Assembly (NCBI GenBank): GCA_020161395.1
Contig: JAIUOE010000005.1
Span: forward strand, 1 to 64,000
Reading direction: 5' to 3'
Origin: Bacteroidota bacterium
GTDB taxonomy: Bacteria; Bacteroidota; Ignavibacteria; Ignavibacteriales; Ignavibacteriaceae
Length of the DNA: 64,000 nucleotides
The notes under the pieces are model-generated. The model searched no databases. It was not told the origin of the DNA and saw only the letters and a list, made by a program, of their open reading frames with translations. Below are positions 22,877 to 51,676 of the stretch, one piece after another. Both the position numbers and the translations under genes were made by a program. Within the stretch, counting starts at the first letter, position 1, and the number at the start of each line of letters is the position of its first letter.

Positions 22877-25834
22877 TTGAAGCTCAAAGTAATCAAATCC
22901 CTGATCCTGCTCACATCTGCCTTTTTGATATCAGGATGTGGTGTCTGGCAGGATTTCACAACATACTTCAATCTTTATCACAACGCAAAAACTCTTTACT
23001 ATGATGCTGAAGAACAAATCATCAAAGAGAGGAAAGATATTTTTGCCATTTCAGAGGCAGCAATCCCTGCCGGAGCCAATCAGAACCTGCCGAAGGTAAT
23101 CGAAAAATTTTCCAAACTTCTACAGTTCCACAACAAGAGTTCTTATGTTGATGATGCCCTCTTCCTTATAGGGAAAGCCTTTTTCTATCAGAGAAGTTAC
23201 ATCAAGGCTTCACGAAAATTTCAGGAATTGATAGCAACCCAGCCAAACAGCAGTCTTGTTATCGATGCCACTCTTTGGCTCGCAAAGTCCGAGATTCAGA
23301 TGAAAAAATTTGATTCAGGGCTAAAATATCTCGATGAAGCAAAGCAGCTTGCCCTCAAAGAAGAGGACAGGGAAGTGTTGTCAGAAGTATATATCGAAGA
23401 GATAAGGTATCTGAAATTCATTGAAAAATACCTCGAAGCCGTTCAGAAATTAAGAGATCTCGTTGCTGTTGATATTTCAAACGACATCTCAGCTAAAGCA
23501 CAATATGAAATCGGCGAGCTCTTCTTCAAAAAATTGAGTGATCCTCAAAAAGCTGCAGTAGCCTACAAAGCAGCTCTTGAATTTGGTCCCCCGTTTGAGA
23601 TCGAATACAATTCCAACCTGAATTACAGCATCTGCCTCAGGGCAATGAACAAAATTGATGAGTCGCAGGCAAATCTTCAAAAAATGTCGAAAGAGTTTAA
23701 ATATCAGGACAAAATTGATGAGATCATGCTCCAAAAGGGGTTGAGTCTAAAAAAACTCGGACAATATGATGAGGCTTATAAACAGCTTTATGCTCTTGAT
23801 ACACTCACACTGAATTCGGTATCATCGGGAATAGCCCGGTTCGAATTGGGTGACATGTTTGAGAACAACCTGAAAAATTTTGATTCTGCTTACATTTATT
23901 ATGTAAAGGCTGAAAAAAGCGCCTCTACTGCCGACTATGTGAAGAGGATCAGAGAAAAATCGAATCTCTTCAAGCGATATGAAGGGCTTCAAACCAATCT
24001 TTATGTTTACTCCCGACAGCTCGCCTACCTGAATGATCCCATGGAATTCAAAAGAGATTCGTTAAATTTCTATGCCGATTCAGCAGACGCCAAGCTCGCA
24101 GATCTCTTCAAAGCTCCCGTTGAACTTTCCGATTCCGCTAAAAAAATGAGGGATTCGCTGCTCGCTGTCAAGGATTCGCTGAAAAACAAACCTGCACCTG
24201 AAAAACCCTCCGAACCATTGGACGAAGAAATGATTGTGGGGAGACCGAAACAGGGTGATAATCCCGAACAGCAGGGTCAAAACAATCCAAATGCCACCGT
24301 GGCTGTATTAAAAAAGGGGTGGGCACCTGTAATGCCTCAGATCACCTCGGATTCTCTAAAAAACCTCCTCTCAAAGGTCTATTTCGACCTTGGAAATGTG
24401 TTTTTTGGTGAAATCGTAATTCCCGACTCTGCCTATAATTATTATACAAAGCTTCTCGGTGAATTTCCAAACTCACGGTATAAAGGTCAGGCACTTTTTT
24501 CACTCGGTTCTTATTACCTCGACAAAAATGAAAAATCGACTGCGGATTCCATCTTCCAGATTGTCTATGATAATTTTAAAAACGAATCAGTTGTGAATCT
24601 TGCGGCTGATAAACTCGGCAAACCAAAAGTAATTCTGAATGCCTCGCCTGCCGATCTTCTTTTTGAAGAAGCAGAAGGCATTTATGTGAAAAAAGATTAC
24701 CATCAGGCGGTTCAAAAGTATTATTCAGTTTATCTCAAGTTCCCCGAAACATTTACCGCTCCCAAGTCACTTCTGGCTGCCGGTTTCACTCTTGAAAATG
24801 ATTTGAAATTGCTCGATTCCGCTTTTGCTGTCTACGATACTCTTGTTGCTAAGTATCCTCAAACACGCTTTACAAACAAGATCCTTCCAAAAGTTAACTT
24901 TTACAAGGAGGAAAAAGCCCGTATCAAAAAGAAAATTGAAGACTCTCTTAAAGTAATCAGGGACAGTCTGAAAGCCGATTCTATTGCGCGGAATACTCCT
25001 AAAATCGATTCCACTGCAACTCAAATCAAGGACTCAACAGGAAAGAGTATTCCAAAAATCGATTCGACTGCGATTCCTAAAAAGGATTCTGCAGCCAAAC
25101 CCCAGGCTGTGCCACCAGCAAAGACGATCGAAGAGCCTAAAAAAGAGGAAATCAAAGAGGAGGTACCACCATTGAGCAATTTCATCAAACGAAGAGACCT
25201 GCTCGATCTTATTGAGGAGGGTGAAAGCACCACTACGGAATTCAAACTGAAGTTTACAGAGCCCGAGAAGATTGCCAAAGTGATGATCTCATTCGCCAAC
25301 ACAAAAGGCGGGTACCTGATTTTTGGAGTGAATGACAACAAAAAAGTGGTGGGACTTGAAAGCGAAAAGACTGAATTTGAGTTCATAAACGAAACCACAA
25401 ATTTCTATATAACCCCAAAAATCGACTACCTTCTGCAATTCATTAATATTGACCAAAAGGAACTCGTGGTGGTTTTTGTTCCTGAATCAGACAATAAACC
25501 TCATCGAATTCAGGATTACAAAGAAGATCTTGATATAAATACCGCTCAGGTTTATATCAGAGTGAACGACAAGAGTATTCCGGCATCGAAACAAATGATC
25601 AGAATTCTCAAGGCGAGAAGTTCTTCAAATCCGCTCGTTAAATTTTCGGTCGGTGATCTCGAAAAAAAAGTTTTTACCTGGCTCGAGAAGCATGAAAAAA
25701 TCAATGTGAAGGATCTTGCAAATGCTGCGAATATCTCCGAAAGAAGGGCATCGAGAACTTTAGTCACGATGGTAAGGGCAGGTTCATTAAGTATCCATAC
25801 AAAGGACAACGGCGAAGAGTTTTTTACAGTCTAA
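22877..25834 (+). CDS. TPR-repeat lipoprotein ORF fused in frame to an AlbA_2 (Schlafen-like) domain
   Basis: A 985-codon ORF with a TTG start. Residues 1-21 are a lipoprotein signal ending LISGC (Cys21). YFNLYHNAKTLYYDA and tetratricopeptide-like helices up to about 680 resemble the TPR lipoproteins of the T9SS PorW/SprE type; that resemblance is tentative. Residues 690-765 are a Lys/Asp/Pro-rich spacer. Residues 766-985 are AlbA_2: EEGESTTTEFKLKF, then SFANTKGGYLIFGVNDN, ending in a winged-helix-like segment. AlbA_2 is a cytosolic nucleic-acid-associated domain, so one protein in the periplasm makes little sense. A strong internal Shine-Dalgarno and TTG at the junction suggest two products. 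The ORF overlaps the convergent methylase gene by 4 bp. Confidence 0.75.
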   Translation: MKLKVIKSLILLTSAFLISGCGVWQDFTTYFNLYHNAKTLYYDAEEQIIKERKDIFAISEAAIPAGANQNLPKVIEKFSKLLQFHNKSSYVDDALFLIGKAFFYQRSYIKASRKFQELIATQPNSSLVIDATLWLAKSEIQMKKFDSGLKYLDEAKQLALKEEDREVLSEVYIEEIRYLKFIEKYLEAVQKLRDLVAVDISNDISAKAQYEIGELFFKKLSDPQKAAVAYKAALEFGPPFEIEYNSNLNYSICLRAMNKIDESQANLQKMSKEFKYQDKIDEIMLQKGLSLKKLGQYDEAYKQLYALDTLTLNSVSSGIARFELGDMFENNLKNFDSAYIYYVKAEKSASTADYVKRIREKSNLFKRYEGLQTNLYVYSRQLAYLNDPMEFKRDSLNFYADSADAKLADLFKAPVELSDSAKKMRDSLLAVKDSLKNKPAPEKPSEPLDEEMIVGRPKQGDNPEQQGQNNPNATVAVLKKGWAPVMPQITSDSLKNLLSKVYFDLGNVFFGEIVIPDSAYNYYTKLLGEFPNSRYKGQALFSLGSYYLDKNEKSTADSIFQIVYDNFKNESVVNLAADKLGKPKVILNASPADLLFEEAEGIYVKKDYHQAVQKYYSVYLKFPETFTAPKSLLAAGFTLENDLKLLDSAFAVYDTLVAKYPQTRFTNKILPKVNFYKEEKARIKKKIEDSLKVIRDSLKADSIARNTPKIDSTATQIKDSTGKSIPKIDSTAIPKKDSAAKPQAVPPAKTIEEPKKEEIKEEVPPLSNFIKRRDLLDLIEEGESTTTEFKLKFTEPEKIAKVMISFANTKGGYLIFGVNDNKKVVGLESEKTEFEFINETTNFYITPKIDYLLQFINIDQKELVVVFVPESDNKPHRIQDYKEDLDINTAQVYIRVNDKSIPASKQMIRILKARSSSNPLVKFSVGDLEKKVFTWLEKHEKINVKDLANAANISERRASRTLVTMVRAGSLSIHTKDNGEEFFTV
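25156..25174 (+). promoter_or_regulatory. Internal ribosome-binding site and TTG start at the AlbA_2 junction
   Basis: AGAGGAGG (25156-25163) followed by T gives a near-perfect anti-16S match, 8 nt before TTG at 25172-25174. The TTG is in frame with the long ORF, at residue 766. Translation from it would give a 220-aa soluble AlbA_2/winged-helix protein starting LSNFIKRRDLL. The purine run is also explained by Lys-Glu-Glu-Val codons, so function is inference. Confidence 0.55.
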
Positions 25835-35676: not shown

Positions 35677-36843
35677 TCACAGCAGTCTTTCCACAATCTC
35701 GTCGCACACAAGAAACCCGTTCCGGGTTAATTTCAGGTTGTTTCCCTCCAAACAGACCTTCCCGGCAGAAATCAGTCCATCGATAATAAGTCGCCTCCCT
35801 GCATACCAGTCCTGCATTTCCGGAGAATCCAAACACAATCCCCTGCTTCTTAAACCAAGCATTATGGATTCTTCATAAAGATCGTTTTCAGATAGCTTTT
35901 CACTGCCTGCTACCGCTTCATTTCTCTTCTGAACAGCGGCATTGTAAATACTGAGAGCGGAATAGTTCCACCACCGTTCTCCATCCATATACGAATGAGC
36001 GGAGGTGCCAAAAGAGAGGTAATTTTTACAGTCCCAGTAAATCTGGTTGTGCCTGCACTCGAATCCCGGTTTGCAGTAATTTGAGACTTCGTAGTGTTCA
36101 AACCCTTTTTCGGCAAGAAAATCCATGGTGATTTCGTAAAGTTCTGAATCAATCTCCTCATCCTGCATTTCGACCTCACCCTTCAGCACCATTTTGTTCA
36201 GGATGGTACCCCGTTCGAGAATCAGGCTGTACGCGGAGATATGAGTGATCGGAAGTGTGGCAGCAATTTCAAGATTTCTCAACCACTTTTCTTTACTCTG
36301 ACCGGGGAGATTGAAAATGAGATCAAGTGAAATATCTGTAAACCCCGCGTTTTGTGCATCTTTAACTGTCTGTATCGCCGACTCTGCTGAATGTATCCTC
36401 GTAAGAAATTTCAGGTCATCCTCATCAAATGACTGAATTCCGATGCTGATTCTGTTTATTCCAATACGCCGAAACTGCCTCAACTTTTCAAGATCAACGG
36501 TGCCGGGATTTGTTTCCATTGTAATTTCGGCATCAGATGAGACAAAAAAGTTTTGTTTAAGATGGTTGATTATCGAACCAAGGTATTCGGGTTCAACTAA
36601 TGAAGGGGTTCCGCCACCAAAATATATGGTATCGAACTTGTGTGTTTTCGAGAAAATTTCAGAAAAATGCTCTATTTCATTTTTTAAACAAGTCAGGTAA
36701 AGGGATTTATTATCTTCTTTGATGATGGAATAAAAATCGCAGTAGATACATTTATGGTCACAGAATGGAATGTGGACATAAAGTCCGGCGTTTTTTAGCA
36801 AACTAACCAAAAAGTCCTTCGCCTTCGATAAGCTCTTTCGCAC
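35677..36843 (-). CDS. hemW: HemW-like radical SAM protein (coproporphyrinogen-dehydrogenase family)
   Basis: A 388-aa reading. The radical SAM motif is Cys28-x3-Cys32-x2-Cys35 (HIPFCDHKCIYCDFYS); FGGGTPSLV, NPGT and SIGIQSFDEDDL follow. The first cluster Cys is present, but such short HemN-like proteins act as heme chaperones (HemW) rather than as oxidases. The frame overlaps recN by 41 bp. A TTG at 36810, with GAAGGA just upstream, would give a start nearer the usual length and is at least as likely as the first ATG. Confidence 0.88.
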   Translation of the reverse strand: MRKSLSKAKDFLVSLLKNAGLYVHIPFCDHKCIYCDFYSIIKEDNKSLYLTCLKNEIEHFSEIFSKTHKFDTIYFGGGTPSLVEPEYLGSIINHLKQNFFVSSDAEITMETNPGTVDLEKLRQFRRIGINRISIGIQSFDEDDLKFLTRIHSAESAIQTVKDAQNAGFTDISLDLIFNLPGQSKEKWLRNLEIAATLPITHISAYSLILERGTILNKMVLKGEVEMQDEEIDSELYEITMDFLAEKGFEHYEVSNYCKPGFECRHNQIYWDCKNYLSFGTSAHSYMDGERWWNYSALSIYNAAVQKRNEAVAGSEKLSENDLYEESIMLGLRSRGLCLDSPEMQDWYAGRRLIIDGLISAGKVCLEGNNLKLTRNGFLVCDEIVERLL

Positions 36844-38527
36844 TTTTTATGGATGCACTTGTCACCTCGGACCCGCTGATCAGTTTGGCGATCTCATTAA
36901 TTTTATCTTCAGGTGATAGTTTGTTAATCTGCGTGGAAGTGGAGCCATTCTGTTCGAATTTCTGAACCGAGAAATGGATGTCAGAGTATGCGGCGATCTG
37001 TGGCAGGTGTGTGATGGCAATAATTTGATGAAACTGCGAAAGCGATTTAAGTGCAATACCAACTTTTTGGGCAATGCGTCCACTGATTCCCGTATCAATT
37101 TCATCGAAAACGAGCACGGGTATCCGATCCATTCCGGCAAGAACCGATTTAAGGGAAAGCATGACCCTGGAAACTTCACCCCCCGAAGCAACTTTTACCA
37201 GCGGCTTCGGGTGTTCCCCTGCGTTTGTGGAGATATAAAATTCCACTTTGTCAATTCCGTTTTCATCGAATTTTACTGCCTTACCGTCGTTCACAATAAA
37301 ACTTCCATCTTTTGGACCCGGCTCTTCATGTGCTATATTTACAACGAAATTGCCACTCTTTATTCCGAGTTCTGAAAGTTTGGCAACTATCCCTTCAGAA
37401 AGTGCCCCTGTTGCCAAAGCTCTTTTCTCCGAAAGTTCTTTTGCAATATTTCCACAGACCTCTCTCTGTTCAGCGATCAGTCTGTTAACACCGGCAAGAT
37501 GATCTGAAAAATTGTCAGCAAGATCAATCTCCTGGAGTAGCTTTTCACGGGTTTCGATGACTTCTTCCAGACTGCCGCCAAATTTTTTCTTCAGCCGGTT
37601 TATGGCAACGAGTCTCTCCCGGCATGCCTCAAGTCTGGAGGGATCGAGATCGATGTTTTTCATATAATCCCGAATCATTTCGGCACTCCCCTGAATGGCA
37701 GCAAGTGCCTGCTCGAGATCAGGAACAAGTTCCGCGAAAGAAGCATCAATCCTGCCCAATGACTCCACCTCCTTCCTGGCGGAAAAAACCAGATCATAGG
37801 AAGACGGTTCACCTTCATACAATTTAGCAAAAGCTGAGGATGTGAGGGTTAAAATCTTCTCGGCGTTCTCTAAAATATTGAGCTCTTTTTCGAGATCGAC
37901 ATCTTCGCCCGGTTGAGGTGAAACAGAATCAATTTCCCGAAGACGAAATGCATAAAACTCCCTTTTCTCTTTCAACTCTTCTTTTTTGGTTTCTATTTCC
38001 CTCTGTTCGGAAAGAAGTTTTTGGAGTTTGAGGGCTTCGGCAGAAAATGTATCCCGAAGTGAAGAAGTCTTTGCAAAGCTGTCGAGATATCCGATGTGAT
38101 TGTCGGGGTGAAGTATCGCCTGATGTTCGTGCTGACCGTGAAGATCCACAAGGCAATCGCCAATCTCTTTCAGAGTGTTGATGCTTACTGGAGTATCATT
38201 GACAAAAGCGCGACTGCTTCCTTTCAGCGAGACTTCCCGTCTGATAATTATTTCGGTCGAGGGTTCAATTTCATTTTCAGTCAGGATCTGTTCAATACGG
38301 TCTGCAGAATTTTTGCCGGGTCTGAAAACCCCTTCAACGAAAGCTTTTTGCGATCCCGTCCTCACTGATTCGACATACGCTCTGCCTCCAAGAACCAGGC
38401 CGAGTGCATCAAGCATAATCGATTTACCGGCACCTGTCTCACCCGTAATGATATTGAGACCGGGACCGAATTCTATCGTGACTTCTTTTATGAGAGCGTA
38501 ATCTTTGATGTAGAGTGAGGTGAGCAT
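36803..38527 (-). CDS. recN: DNA repair protein RecN
   Basis: A 574-aa SMC-like ATPase. Walker A GETGAGKS at 29-36, long coiled-coil arms in the middle (about 150-370), signature region KVASGGEVSRVMLSLK near 440-455, and Walker B VLVFDEIDTGISGR followed by ITHLPQIAA. RecN holds broken DNA ends together during double-strand break repair. Length and motifs are standard. The hemW-like gene follows with overlap. Confidence 0.97.
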   Translation of the reverse strand: MLTSLYIKDYALIKEVTIEFGPGLNIITGETGAGKSIMLDALGLVLGGRAYVESVRTGSQKAFVEGVFRPGKNSADRIEQILTENEIEPSTEIIIRREVSLKGSSRAFVNDTPVSINTLKEIGDCLVDLHGQHEHQAILHPDNHIGYLDSFAKTSSLRDTFSAEALKLQKLLSEQREIETKKEELKEKREFYAFRLREIDSVSPQPGEDVDLEKELNILENAEKILTLTSSAFAKLYEGEPSSYDLVFSARKEVESLGRIDASFAELVPDLEQALAAIQGSAEMIRDYMKNIDLDPSRLEACRERLVAINRLKKKFGGSLEEVIETREKLLQEIDLADNFSDHLAGVNRLIAEQREVCGNIAKELSEKRALATGALSEGIVAKLSELGIKSGNFVVNIAHEEPGPKDGSFIVNDGKAVKFDENGIDKVEFYISTNAGEHPKPLVKVASGGEVSRVMLSLKSVLAGMDRIPVLVFDEIDTGISGRIAQKVGIALKSLSQFHQIIAITHLPQIAAYSDIHFSVQKFEQNGSTSTQINKLSPEDKINEIAKLISGSEVTSASIKSAKELIEGEGLFG

Positions 38528-48046: not shown

Positions 48047-51000
48047 TTATTTTTCCGCCTGATTTTCCTTGATTTCTCTCAAGGCTTCATTCGAATAGTA
48101 GTCCAGCATGTCGAGAAGTCCCGGAATTTTCCCTTCAGGATCGTTGTCAAGGGCGAGTTTTTCGATCTGTGGAACGACACCTTCAAGCTCCTTGATACCC
48201 ATATAAGAGAGTGTTGGTTTGAACTTGTGTGCAACTTTTTTTATCTCCTCCCACTCTTTCTCTTCATAGAGTGATCTCAGTTTCGACAATACCTCGGGAG
48301 TATTTTCAGCGAATAAATTCATCATTTCTCCGATAATATCATCGTCACCCCCCGTCAGCTCATTCAGATAGTCAAGACGGATATATTTGAATCTGGAATC
48401 CACAGGCATAATTACCTCACTTTTTTCATCTTCTTCATTAATTTTTTCCGCCGGGATCCGGTCTCGTCCCGTGAGGGTAAAAATCTTTTTCTGAAGTTCC
48501 ACCGGTTTTACGGGTTTGCTTATATAATCATTCATGCCACTCGAGAAGACCCTGTCCTTCGATTCAATCATCGCCGATGCGGTAAATGCCAGGATGGGGA
48601 TATCTTTTTTCGGGAAAGGGAAATCGAGCCTGATTGCTTCCGAGGTTTCGAATCCGTTCATTACAGGCATCGAGAGATCCATCAGGATGATGTCAAAATC
48701 CTCATTTTTGAAAAGCTCTATTGCCTGTTTGCCGTTTGGTGCCACTTTATATGCACACCCCCACAGTTTGAGAATATTGGTGGCTACAAGCTGGTTCATC
48801 TCATTATCCTCGACCACAAGCACTTTTAATCCGGTTAAATCTTTTCGGGTATGGGTTGTTTCTTCAATCAGATCGCTTCCAAGGATGAGATCATCCCTTT
48901 TTGAGATTTTAAACGGCATTTTTACCGTAAATTCAGATCCAATCCCCTCGGTACTCGTCACATAAATTTCACCTCCCTGCTTTTCAACAAGGGATTTTAC
49001 AATCGCAAGACCGAGACCGGTACCCATTTTTGCTCTTCTGTCCCTGTTTTTAACCTGTTCAAACGAGTCAAAAATTTTGCTCAGATATTGTTTTGGAATT
49101 CCAATGCCTGTGTCGGAAACCCGGAATTTGAGTCTGATTTCTTCCTCGTCTTTGGCAAGGACCTCGACACTCACCTTTACTTCCCCTTTTTCCGTAAATT
49201 TTACAGAATTTGAGACAAGATTCAGCAGGATCTGCCCGAATCTTACCTGATCACCCTTCACCCAGAATGGAACATCATCTTCAACCGAGGCTGCAACTTT
49301 TATCCCTTTTTCTTCCGCAGAATATCTGACAGATTCAATTACATGATTAACTGATTCGAGAATGGAGAAGTCATCGATGAAAAACTCAAGCTTGTTTGCT
49401 TCAATCTTCGAAAAATCGAGAATATCATTAATAATTACAAGCAGATTGTCGGTGGAATATTTAATCGCCTTCAGGAATTGTACCTGTTCTTCCGAAGGAT
49501 TCAGTTCAAGAAGAAGGTGTGTAAATCCGAGAACGGCATTCATAGGAGTTCTGATCTCATGACTGATGTGAGCCAAAAACTGTTCTTTCGCTTTGGTTGA
49601 TTCGACAGCCAGGTTTCTCGCCGCCTCAAGCTCTTTTAATCTTCTTCTTCTTTCAGTTATGTCACTTAGAGCGACGGTATAATAGACCTCCATGTTGAAT
49701 TCCATCCTCGAGACATGAATTTCAACGGGAAAAGTGGTGCCGTCGCGTCTTACTCCGGTAAGTTCAATGCTCTGTCCCATTATCTCCCTGTACATCGAAT
49801 CGACATCACCGGTCCATATCGAGAGATCAAACATCCCCTCCTTGAAGAGCATCTGGAAATCCTCCCGGATGAGGGCTTCCTTCGAGTAGCCCCAAATCCT
49901 TCTGACCTCTTCATTAATTAGCATTATTCTGCTGTGACTGTCGAGAAGTATAATCCCATCTGCAACAGTCTCAAGCACAGTCTGGAACAGTTTTCTCGAT
50001 CTTTCCAGCGATTCGTTTGCTGCCCGCAGATCAGTGATGTCAAGACCGTAACCGATGAGATAATCTACCTCCCCTTCACTGTTCAAAATTGGATTGATCA
50101 CCCTGAGAATTTTCTTTTTATTATCTTTGTTCCCCACCTCCTCCTCAAAATGGAGAGTCTTCTTTGTTTTAATTACTTCCCGAAGTGTATCCTCCCTTTT
50201 TGCTGCAGATTTTGGATCGTAACCCCGGTAAGCAAAATATTCCGAGTCTGTCTTTCCGATAATATATTTTCTTAACCCCTCATTCTTCAGACTTTCGGGG
50301 TTTATGAAAATGTAGCGAAGATTTTTGTCAAATACCGCAATTTGACCCGGAAGATCATTTAGAATTTTCTCATAAAACTGCTTCAGACGGTCGATTTCTG
50401 CGTTAAGACTTTTCGATTCTGTAATATCCCGTGCAACTGCATGCAGACCTGACAACCTGCCATCCAGTATATTTAGTCTGACATTTTGACCAACCCAAAG
50501 GGTTTTCCCGCTTTTGGTGGTCATCCTGAATTCGAGATAGGTATTTTCCGTCTGACTCACAATTTGATTAATGTAGTGTTCTTTAACCCTTTGTTTATCT
50601 TCAGGATGAACGAGTTCCAGGTAGTTCATCTTCAACAGCTCTTGAAGCGAAAATTCACTCAAAGTCTCACCTTTGGGATTCACAAATGTAAAATCCCCCT
50701 TCACGGTGGCACTGTAAATGATATCGCTTGCATTTTCAATAATCTGACGGTACTTGAATTCATTTTCACGCAACTGTCTGTCAGCTTCCTTTCGGGCAGT
50801 TATATCACGGTATGCCCAAAGATGACCTTTGTATTCGGACTGCACGAATATCGGAACATAGTCTCTTTCGAATGATCTTCCATCTTTTAGCTGCAGTTCT
50901 TCATTTTTTACCAACTCCTTCCTTCCCAGTAAAGTAACAATCCCTGACACAAACTCCTCGGGATCGAGGAAAAGGTTTTTCGATTCCTCTGCTGAATTAC

Positions 51001-51676
51001 TGCAATCCGCCCCGATCAATAGTGCCGGCTCAACAGGAATCGAGAAAAGATCGCAGAACATCTTGTTTAGTGCTATTATTCTTCTATCCTCATTTTCGAC
51101 AAGAACCCCTGCATTCAAATTCATCAGCAGTGCTTCCAGTGTGGAAGAAAATTCCCTGATCTTTCGGGAAGCTTCCTTCTCTTTCACGCTGTGAATTATC
51201 CGATGACAGTTTAGAGACATGATTCTGGTTAGAAATGATGACAGTGATTTGAATTCTTCGTTGTAGAAGTCAGGAAATTCACTCACATAACCAACACATC
51301 CGTAACATTCGTCATCATGAAGAAGTGGAAAATATATTCTGGAATTGACATTAAATGATCTTTTGCTAGAAACTGAAATGTTGTCATTTTCTGAGTCCCC
51401 ATCACCTGTGACAAGATTCTTCCTGTTTCTTATAACCCAGCCGGGGTGTCTTTCCCAGGCTGTTCTCTCGGCTTCCAGTCTCTCGACCTCTGAAAATCCT
51501 TTCGAGTGAAGGAGGCGAAGATCATTTGTGTAGGGGTCTATCAGATAGAGAGCTGTTTTTTCAATATTGCCATATGCTTCTACAAAAACATCGAACGCAT
51601 GTGCAAATTCTTCAATTGATGTGGCGGTTGAAAATAAAACTGTTACTTCTTCGAGGAGTTGTAATTGTTTGTCCAT
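48047..51676 (-). CDS. Hybrid sensor histidine kinase with GAF, PAS, receiver and Hpt domains
   Basis: A 1209-aa multidomain kinase without obvious membrane helices. Order: an N-terminal GAF-like domain (about 1-165), four or so PAS domains (about 180-680, with PAC pieces such as LSGLHAVARDITE and YTVALSDITERR), HisKA with His706 (HISHEIRTPMN), an HATPase domain (NLVSNSVKFTEKG, DTGIGIP, GTGLGLAIVKSL), a receiver with Asp1000 (MDLSMPVMNG), and a C-terminal Hpt with His1150 (AHKFKPTLSYMG). It can run a full phosphorelay, most simply to the response regulator-phosphatase encoded 34 nt downstream. The input signal is unknown but probably cytosolic. Confidence 0.93.
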   Translation of the reverse strand: MDKQLQLLEEVTVLFSTATSIEEFAHAFDVFVEAYGNIEKTALYLIDPYTNDLRLLHSKGFSEVERLEAERTAWERHPGWVIRNRKNLVTGDGDSENDNISVSSKRSFNVNSRIYFPLLHDDECYGCVGYVSEFPDFYNEEFKSLSSFLTRIMSLNCHRIIHSVKEKEASRKIREFSSTLEALLMNLNAGVLVENEDRRIIALNKMFCDLFSIPVEPALLIGADCSNSAEESKNLFLDPEEFVSGIVTLLGRKELVKNEELQLKDGRSFERDYVPIFVQSEYKGHLWAYRDITARKEADRQLRENEFKYRQIIENASDIIYSATVKGDFTFVNPKGETLSEFSLQELLKMNYLELVHPEDKQRVKEHYINQIVSQTENTYLEFRMTTKSGKTLWVGQNVRLNILDGRLSGLHAVARDITESKSLNAEIDRLKQFYEKILNDLPGQIAVFDKNLRYIFINPESLKNEGLRKYIIGKTDSEYFAYRGYDPKSAAKREDTLREVIKTKKTLHFEEEVGNKDNKKKILRVINPILNSEGEVDYLIGYGLDITDLRAANESLERSRKLFQTVLETVADGIILLDSHSRIMLINEEVRRIWGYSKEALIREDFQMLFKEGMFDLSIWTGDVDSMYREIMGQSIELTGVRRDGTTFPVEIHVSRMEFNMEVYYTVALSDITERRRRLKELEAARNLAVESTKAKEQFLAHISHEIRTPMNAVLGFTHLLLELNPSEEQVQFLKAIKYSTDNLLVIINDILDFSKIEANKLEFFIDDFSILESVNHVIESVRYSAEEKGIKVAASVEDDVPFWVKGDQVRFGQILLNLVSNSVKFTEKGEVKVSVEVLAKDEEEIRLKFRVSDTGIGIPKQYLSKIFDSFEQVKNRDRRAKMGTGLGLAIVKSLVEKQGGEIYVTSTEGIGSEFTVKMPFKISKRDDLILGSDLIEETTHTRKDLTGLKVLVVEDNEMNQLVATNILKLWGCAYKVAPNGKQAIELFKNEDFDIILMDLSMPVMNGFETSEAIRLDFPFPKKDIPILAFTASAMIESKDRVFSSGMNDYISKPVKPVELQKKIFTLTGRDRIPAEKINEEDEKSEVIMPVDSRFKYIRLDYLNELTGGDDDIIGEMMNLFAENTPEVLSKLRSLYEEKEWEEIKKVAHKFKPTLSYMGIKELEGVVPQIEKLALDNDPEGKIPGLLDMLDYYSNEALREIKENQAEK

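Follow-up and report, generated by a model that had tools for sequence, protein, structure and literature searches.

A PorW/SprE-like lipoprotein gene and a Schlafen-core gene, recently merged into one reading frame, most likely still give two proteins

The T9SS protein PorW has been described as an outer-membrane lipoprotein that carries two TPR arrays and faces the periplasm, its C-terminus included, and PorW of P. gingivalis was reported to bind PorN and to bridge to the translocon (PMC8754138). In-frame internal initiation is known from E. coli infB (IF2 alpha/beta), cheA (CheA-L/S) and clpB, as well as from CcmM and Salmonella SsaQ (PMC11005335). Both subjects bear on a reading frame in the window, which is the whole 64,000-nt stretch of Ignavibacteriaceae DNA that was analysed. 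The frame was open over 985 codons from 22877 to 25834. The features of this locus are given below, with G000 denoting the window's genome, G003 its sister species, and G001 and G002 two deeper-branching congeners.

22877-25834, + strand: fused ORF of 985 aa (about 110 kDa), a PorW/SprE-like TPR lipoprotein followed by a linker and an AlbA_2 part with a probable winged helix
22877-22942, + strand: lipoprotein signal peptide with the lipobox LISG/C, recognized in the sequence by eye
22946-24880, + strand: two TPR arrays homologous to PorW/SprE, with a low-confidence segment (aa 438-479) between them (NF052312 matches and AlphaFold2 model)
24995-25162, + strand: disordered linker (aa 707-762, pLDDT < 50), Ser/Asp-rich and then Pro/Lys/Glu-rich, with the internal Shine-Dalgarno at its end
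25130-25222, + strand: run of 31 codons without a difference between G000 and G003, longer than any other in the ORF and covering the Shine-Dalgarno and the start (codon comparison)
25158-25164, + strand: internal Shine-Dalgarno AGGAGGT; the AlbA_2 starts of G001, G002 and G003 likewise follow an AGGAG
25172-25174, + strand: internal start codon TTG (residue 766), by comparison of the congeners the inherited AlbA_2 start, which is ATG in G001 and G002
25173-25175, + strand: TGA one frame over (+1), sharing two letters with the TTG (TTGA), at which a ribosome in the old lipoprotein frame would stop
25172-25834, + strand: AlbA_2 gene proper, with a Schlafen-type fold, the acidic triad E18/E23/D55 and a probable C-terminal winged helix; 220 aa, about 25 kDa if made from the TTG
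25223-25585, + strand: SLFN_AlbA_2 domain (PF04326, Pfam)

The N-terminus of the ORF reads ...LLTSAFLISGC, a lipobox signal peptide as judged by eye, and a G-C-[GS]-x-W motif close to it was aligned across relatives. The model NF052312 matched at 22946-23965 with 107.7 bits and at 24347-24880 with 45 bits, covering both halves of the model, and these were its best matches in the genome. The whole protein scored 136.3 bits, which is below the curated cut-off of 250 bits; it is therefore called PorW/SprE-like here and was not assigned to the family. The two hallmarks of PorW/SprE, a lipobox (by eye) and two TPR arrays, were both present. The same genome encoded a full-length SprA (967.6 bits) and at least 150 matches to the Por_Secre_tail sorting domain (150 of 235 candidates scored). 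SprA and this number of sorting domains mark it as a heavily T9SS-dependent genome.

The downstream part matched SLFN_AlbA_2 at aa 783-903 with 84.7 bits against a cut-off of 25.3 (scores 84.7-88.1). In an AlphaFold2 model of the whole ORF, two helical-repeat blocks were predicted, with disorder at residues 438-479 and 707-762 (pLDDT < 50), and the AlbA_2 part was ordered again from about residue 768. Since disorder reached residue 762 and order resumed at about 768, the TTG at residue 766 marks the end of the linker and the domain boundary. Modelled alone from a 59-sequence alignment, AlbA_2 reached a pLDDT of 91, and the models present it as an independent fold after a disordered linker. A TPR lipoprotein and AlbA_2 in one ORF, with an internal start at their junction, had been proposed from the sequence-only reading, and the open frame, the lipobox, the Pfam match and the Shine-Dalgarno (SD)-TTG pair bore this out. 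The placing of the TTG at the domain boundary, behind a Pro/Lys/Glu-rich spacer, also held in the models.

The modelled AlbA_2 fold was Schlafen-type. Residues E18, E23 and D55 were in register with the catalytic E205, E210 and D248 of SLFN13 in an alignment with 5yd0; among 59 orthologues E23 and D55 were invariant and E18 was kept in 90% or more. Judged by these residues, AlbA_2 may be a small RNase. Its conserved cytosolic job would probably be binding of RNA or DNA, and possibly cleavage of RNA. The C-terminal part resembled a winged helix, with TrmB (19.0 bits) and MarR (15.2 bits) both scoring below cut-off and fold comparison pointing weakly to ArsR/CadC and Z-alpha (E about 0.03-0.08), and a winged helix is probable there. 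Defence-system models gave no match to AlbA_2. Positions 14-145 of the orthologue profile (alignment A1) matched PDB entry 9ylu, named CbCash, with an E value of 2.3e-05.

The spacing between AGGAGG (25158-25163) and TTG 25172 was 8 nt. The sequence-only reading had this distance and the in-frame TTG right, and its coordinates for the SD (25156-25163) are corrected here to 25158-25164 for AGGAGGT. Ribosomes of Bacteroidia have been reported to disregard SDs (PMC9976891). In 464 kb of the G000 genome, the extent covered by the SD statistics, a match of at least 4 nt preceded 38% of 73 unambiguous starts vs 15% of interior start codons, a modest yet real signal. A match of at least 7 nt at workable spacing was found at 5 of 3821 interior in-frame start codons, TTG 25172 among the five, and the expectation for such pairs was 0.057 per 985 codons. 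Predicted mRNA folding around the TTG was weak (-4.4 vs a mean of -8.4 kcal/mol), with 14% of codons equally weak or weaker. TTG is a weaker start than ATG; this, the moderate use of SDs by the genome and the report on Bacteroidia count against internal initiation here. Other internal starts were considered and rejected: near the boundary only TTG 25172 had an SD, GTG 25109 had no SD match, and GTG 25280 and ATG 25283 fell within the AlbA_2 domain. A search of the window with Rfam matched no RNA element.

Two further pairs of this kind were seen on the minus strand of the window. A perfect 9-nt SD (AAGGAGGTG) preceded an in-frame TTG at 37759 inside ORF 36803-38527, a gene for a RecF/RecN/SMC-type ATPase; this is perhaps chance or another internal start. 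GGAGGTG preceded an in-frame GTG at 48961 inside ORF 48047-51676, a hybrid histidine kinase gene. This GTG lies near the end of the HATPase_c domain, just ahead of the receiver and Hpt domains, and from its position it could yield a separate receiver-Hpt protein.

Because an SD-start pair by itself is no proof of use, relatives were compared. The lipoprotein-AlbA_2 protein was searched in 79 genomes, that of the window included, and 70 loci were read. Both parts were present in 64 loci, always close together and on the same strand. They were separate neighbouring genes in 63 of the 64 relatives' loci, with G003 the sole fused one. Of the 71 family genomes with AlbA_2, 69 encoded it as an ORF of its own no longer than 280 aa; an AlbA_2-containing frame of 990 occurred in G000 and G003 only. 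Orthologues of AlbA_2 were found in 58 relatives at 50-97% identity, and the lipoprotein was less conserved than AlbA_2. The more distant orthologues began with ATG at an ordinary separate gene start, mostly without an SD. Repeated fusion, considered for G008, G013, G015, G016, G041, G061, G074 and G077, was discarded after direct reading gave two separate ORFs in each, and a conserved NPR[RK] motif at the lipoprotein C-terminus was dropped as it was present in only 10 of 64. Across the family and the order (L033-L100), a small protein with a Schlafen core, a probable winged helix and the full SLFN13-like triad adjoins the PorW-like lipoprotein gene.

The gap between the lipoprotein and AlbA_2 genes exceeded 600 nt in 26 of the 64 loci, and in most of the remaining loci the genes almost touched or overlapped slightly. 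At the one locus checked, the gene in the gap was an mtgA-like PF00912 transglycosylase, and similar sequences were found in three others. Such a peptidoglycan transglycosylase gene often stands between the pair (L044, L055, L079, L085 and others with gaps > 600 nt). Judged by gene order, the ancestral state in the family is two separate genes, with mtgA between them in some genomes. In the four genomes of the window's genus, mtgA was absent from this spot, and its loss may have brought the two genes together. G000 keeps one PF00912 gene elsewhere, within a 752-aa frame (G000:C17).

In G001 and G002, the last 79 nt of the lipoprotein frame lay over AlbA_2 in a different frame, and AlbA_2 started with ATGGGC behind CAGGAGA, inside the lipoprotein ORF. 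As AlbA_2 is out of frame there, its protein can be made in these species only by starting within the lipoprotein ORF. The position of the SD and start codon was thus shared by all four species; the start was in frame in G000 and G003, and the SD was longer in the fused pair than in G001 and G002. The sequence-only reading had held that orthologues lacking both the SD and the start would speak against internal initiation; the closest relatives had AGGAG and ATG at that place. Around the start codon, the window and G003 read GAGGAGGTACCACCATTGAGC and G002 CAGGAGAGCCCATGGGC, a net gain of 4 nt. The net +4-nt change in the G000/G003 lineage is seen in AGGAGAGCCCATGGGC against AGGAGGTACCACCATTGAGC. 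Its effects are that the lipoprotein enters the AlbA_2 frame, the ATG becomes TTG, and the SD spacing, counted from AGGAG, grows from 5 to 9 nt. A tree of the lipoprotein part had the order (G001,(G002,(G000,G003))) with supports of 98/97 and 100/100, and the AlbA_2 tree had the same branching order with weaker support. The simplest reading of this order is that the genus started from the out-of-frame overlap and that the fusion arose from it; the succession is based on four genomes, two fused and two overlapping. From these comparisons, the fusion is real, recent and derived, and among the genomes searched it is confined to two sister species, and the start at 25172 is evidently AlbA_2's own, inherited from the separate gene. 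The loss of a stop codon, suggested from the sequence alone, does not describe this history, since within the genus an overlap of the two genes in different frames came first, and 4 nt gained net at the start codon merged the frames. Internal initiation and fusion had been posed as alternatives; the relatives support both, together.

The fused frame of G003 shared 96% protein identity and 91% DNA identity with that of G000, and synonymous divergence over the ORF was 0.33 (a third of synonymous sites). In shuffles, a run as long as the 31 identical codons had p = 0.0008 at the start codon, and a run of 31 or more anywhere in the ORF had p = 0.03; as the run lies within coding sequence, amino-acid constraint or chance may explain part of it. 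As a positive control, divergence between G000 and G003 dipped similarly over the opening codons of the ORF, which are an ordinary gene start. The dN/dS between the two species was about 0.05 for AlbA_2 and 0.04 for the TPR part, and on these values AlbA_2 is still under strong purifying selection in the fused species. G000 contained one AlbA_2 orthologue at E <= 1e-40, and no more than one per genome passed this threshold. Compensation by another AlbA_2 gene was considered and rejected, since the three other PF04326 genes of this genome were paralogues scoring 53-70 bits only. Since AlbA_2 stands alone in relatives, is still selected and has a conserved start signal ahead of it, it is, most simply, still made from TTG 25172.

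In this recent fusion of conserved neighbours AlbA_2 is nested in frame and keeps its own ribosome-binding site, and we regard it as probable that it yields a separate product. Ribosomes starting at 22877 would make the full-length PorW-like lipoprotein, with AlbA_2 as an inert passenger tail in the periplasm, and the same mRNA, entered by ribosomes at 25172, would yield an AlbA_2 protein of about 25 kDa for its conserved cytosolic job. It is also conceivable that the full-length protein alone is made, with AlbA_2 as a working tail or as useless baggage. One open frame in two species, its survival through considerable synonymous divergence and an internal codon that is TTG and not ATG would all fit this, but the low dN/dS of AlbA_2 opposes baggage, AlbA_2 stands alone elsewhere, and no stretch unchanged between G000 and G003 is longer than the one over the SD and start. 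Moreover, PorW has its C-terminus in the periplasm (PMC8754138), and what a nucleic-acid module would act on there is not obvious. We consider such a complete merger unlikely. Still less probable is a functional full-length product that joins an outer-membrane PorW-like T9SS lipoprotein to a periplasmic Schlafen-type module, or that acts from a non-exported cytosolic pool; if true, it would be a physical link between a secretion machine and nucleic acid in G000 and G003. The link between envelope state and a nucleic-acid-binding module that the sequence-only reading had raised found no support, AlbA_2 being stand-alone in 69 of 71 family genomes.

Equally unlikely as the complete merger is a short mRNA, driven by a promoter inside the lipoprotein gene, on which the SD would serve AlbA_2. 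It is possible in principle and fits the SD and start evidence just as well, but the 300 nt ahead of the start contained no Bacteroidota-type -7 element (TAnnTTTG) in G000, G001, G002 or G003. In another reading, ribosomes would shift frame near the A6 run at 25137-25142, so that the lipoprotein normally ends before AlbA_2 and little fused protein is made. This would draw on CCT AAA AAA GAG inside the conserved block, where a +1 shift would end translation at TGA 25173 and a -1 shift about 24 codons further on. The A6 site is, however, no good slippery heptamer and the congeners require nothing comparable, so that we give frameshifting very little weight. An error of sequencing or assembly that joined the two genes, a caution raised earlier, can be put aside as having a negligible chance: a few changed bases at the junction do distinguish the fused from the unfused state, but G003, with 9% of ORF bases different, agrees with G000 both in the open frame and in the bases of the junction.

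Dual products from one gene thus remain the most likely outcome, as judged from the sequence comparisons. The genus offers a natural series for the birth of an in-frame nested gene, from separate genes through an out-of-frame overlap to an in-frame fusion with the old start kept. It also illustrates how a surprising domain pairing can be an annotation trap, as the 985-aa ORF most likely represents two proteins that reside in different compartments. Gene-calling programs can be expected to give the long ORF only and to lose the small Schlafen-core protein in the fused species.

Like PorW/SprE of the T9SS (PMC8754138), the lipoprotein half has a lipobox, two TPR arrays, the best NF052312 match and a T9SS genome around it, whereas it differs in its sub-cut-off score (136 vs 250 bits) and in the linker and AlbA_2 tail. 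The other half shares the fold and three acidic residues with the Schlafen core of AlbA_2 (PF04326) and the RNase SLFN13 (PMC5862951). Unlike SLFN13, it is a single small bacterial copy that probably ends in a winged helix. Similar to neighbouring genes that fused, including fusions born by deletion (PMC12803068), two neighbours became one frame here; in contrast to such fusions, the genes had previously come to overlap out of frame, a small frame change completed the merger, and the start of the downstream gene survived. Neither internal initiation nor gene fusion is a new kind of event, and the value of the locus is in the evolutionary series and the annotation warning. As in the genes within genes infB, cheA, clpB, CcmM and SsaQ, one ORF contains a second in-frame ribosome-binding site that would give an N-terminally truncated protein. 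The short product of the known systems has a role of its own, and that of the ORF at 22877-25834, predicted here from sequence, would have one too. What sets this case apart from infB and the others is that the short product would stem from a gene that stood alone until a recent fusion, and that it would belong to another compartment than the long product.
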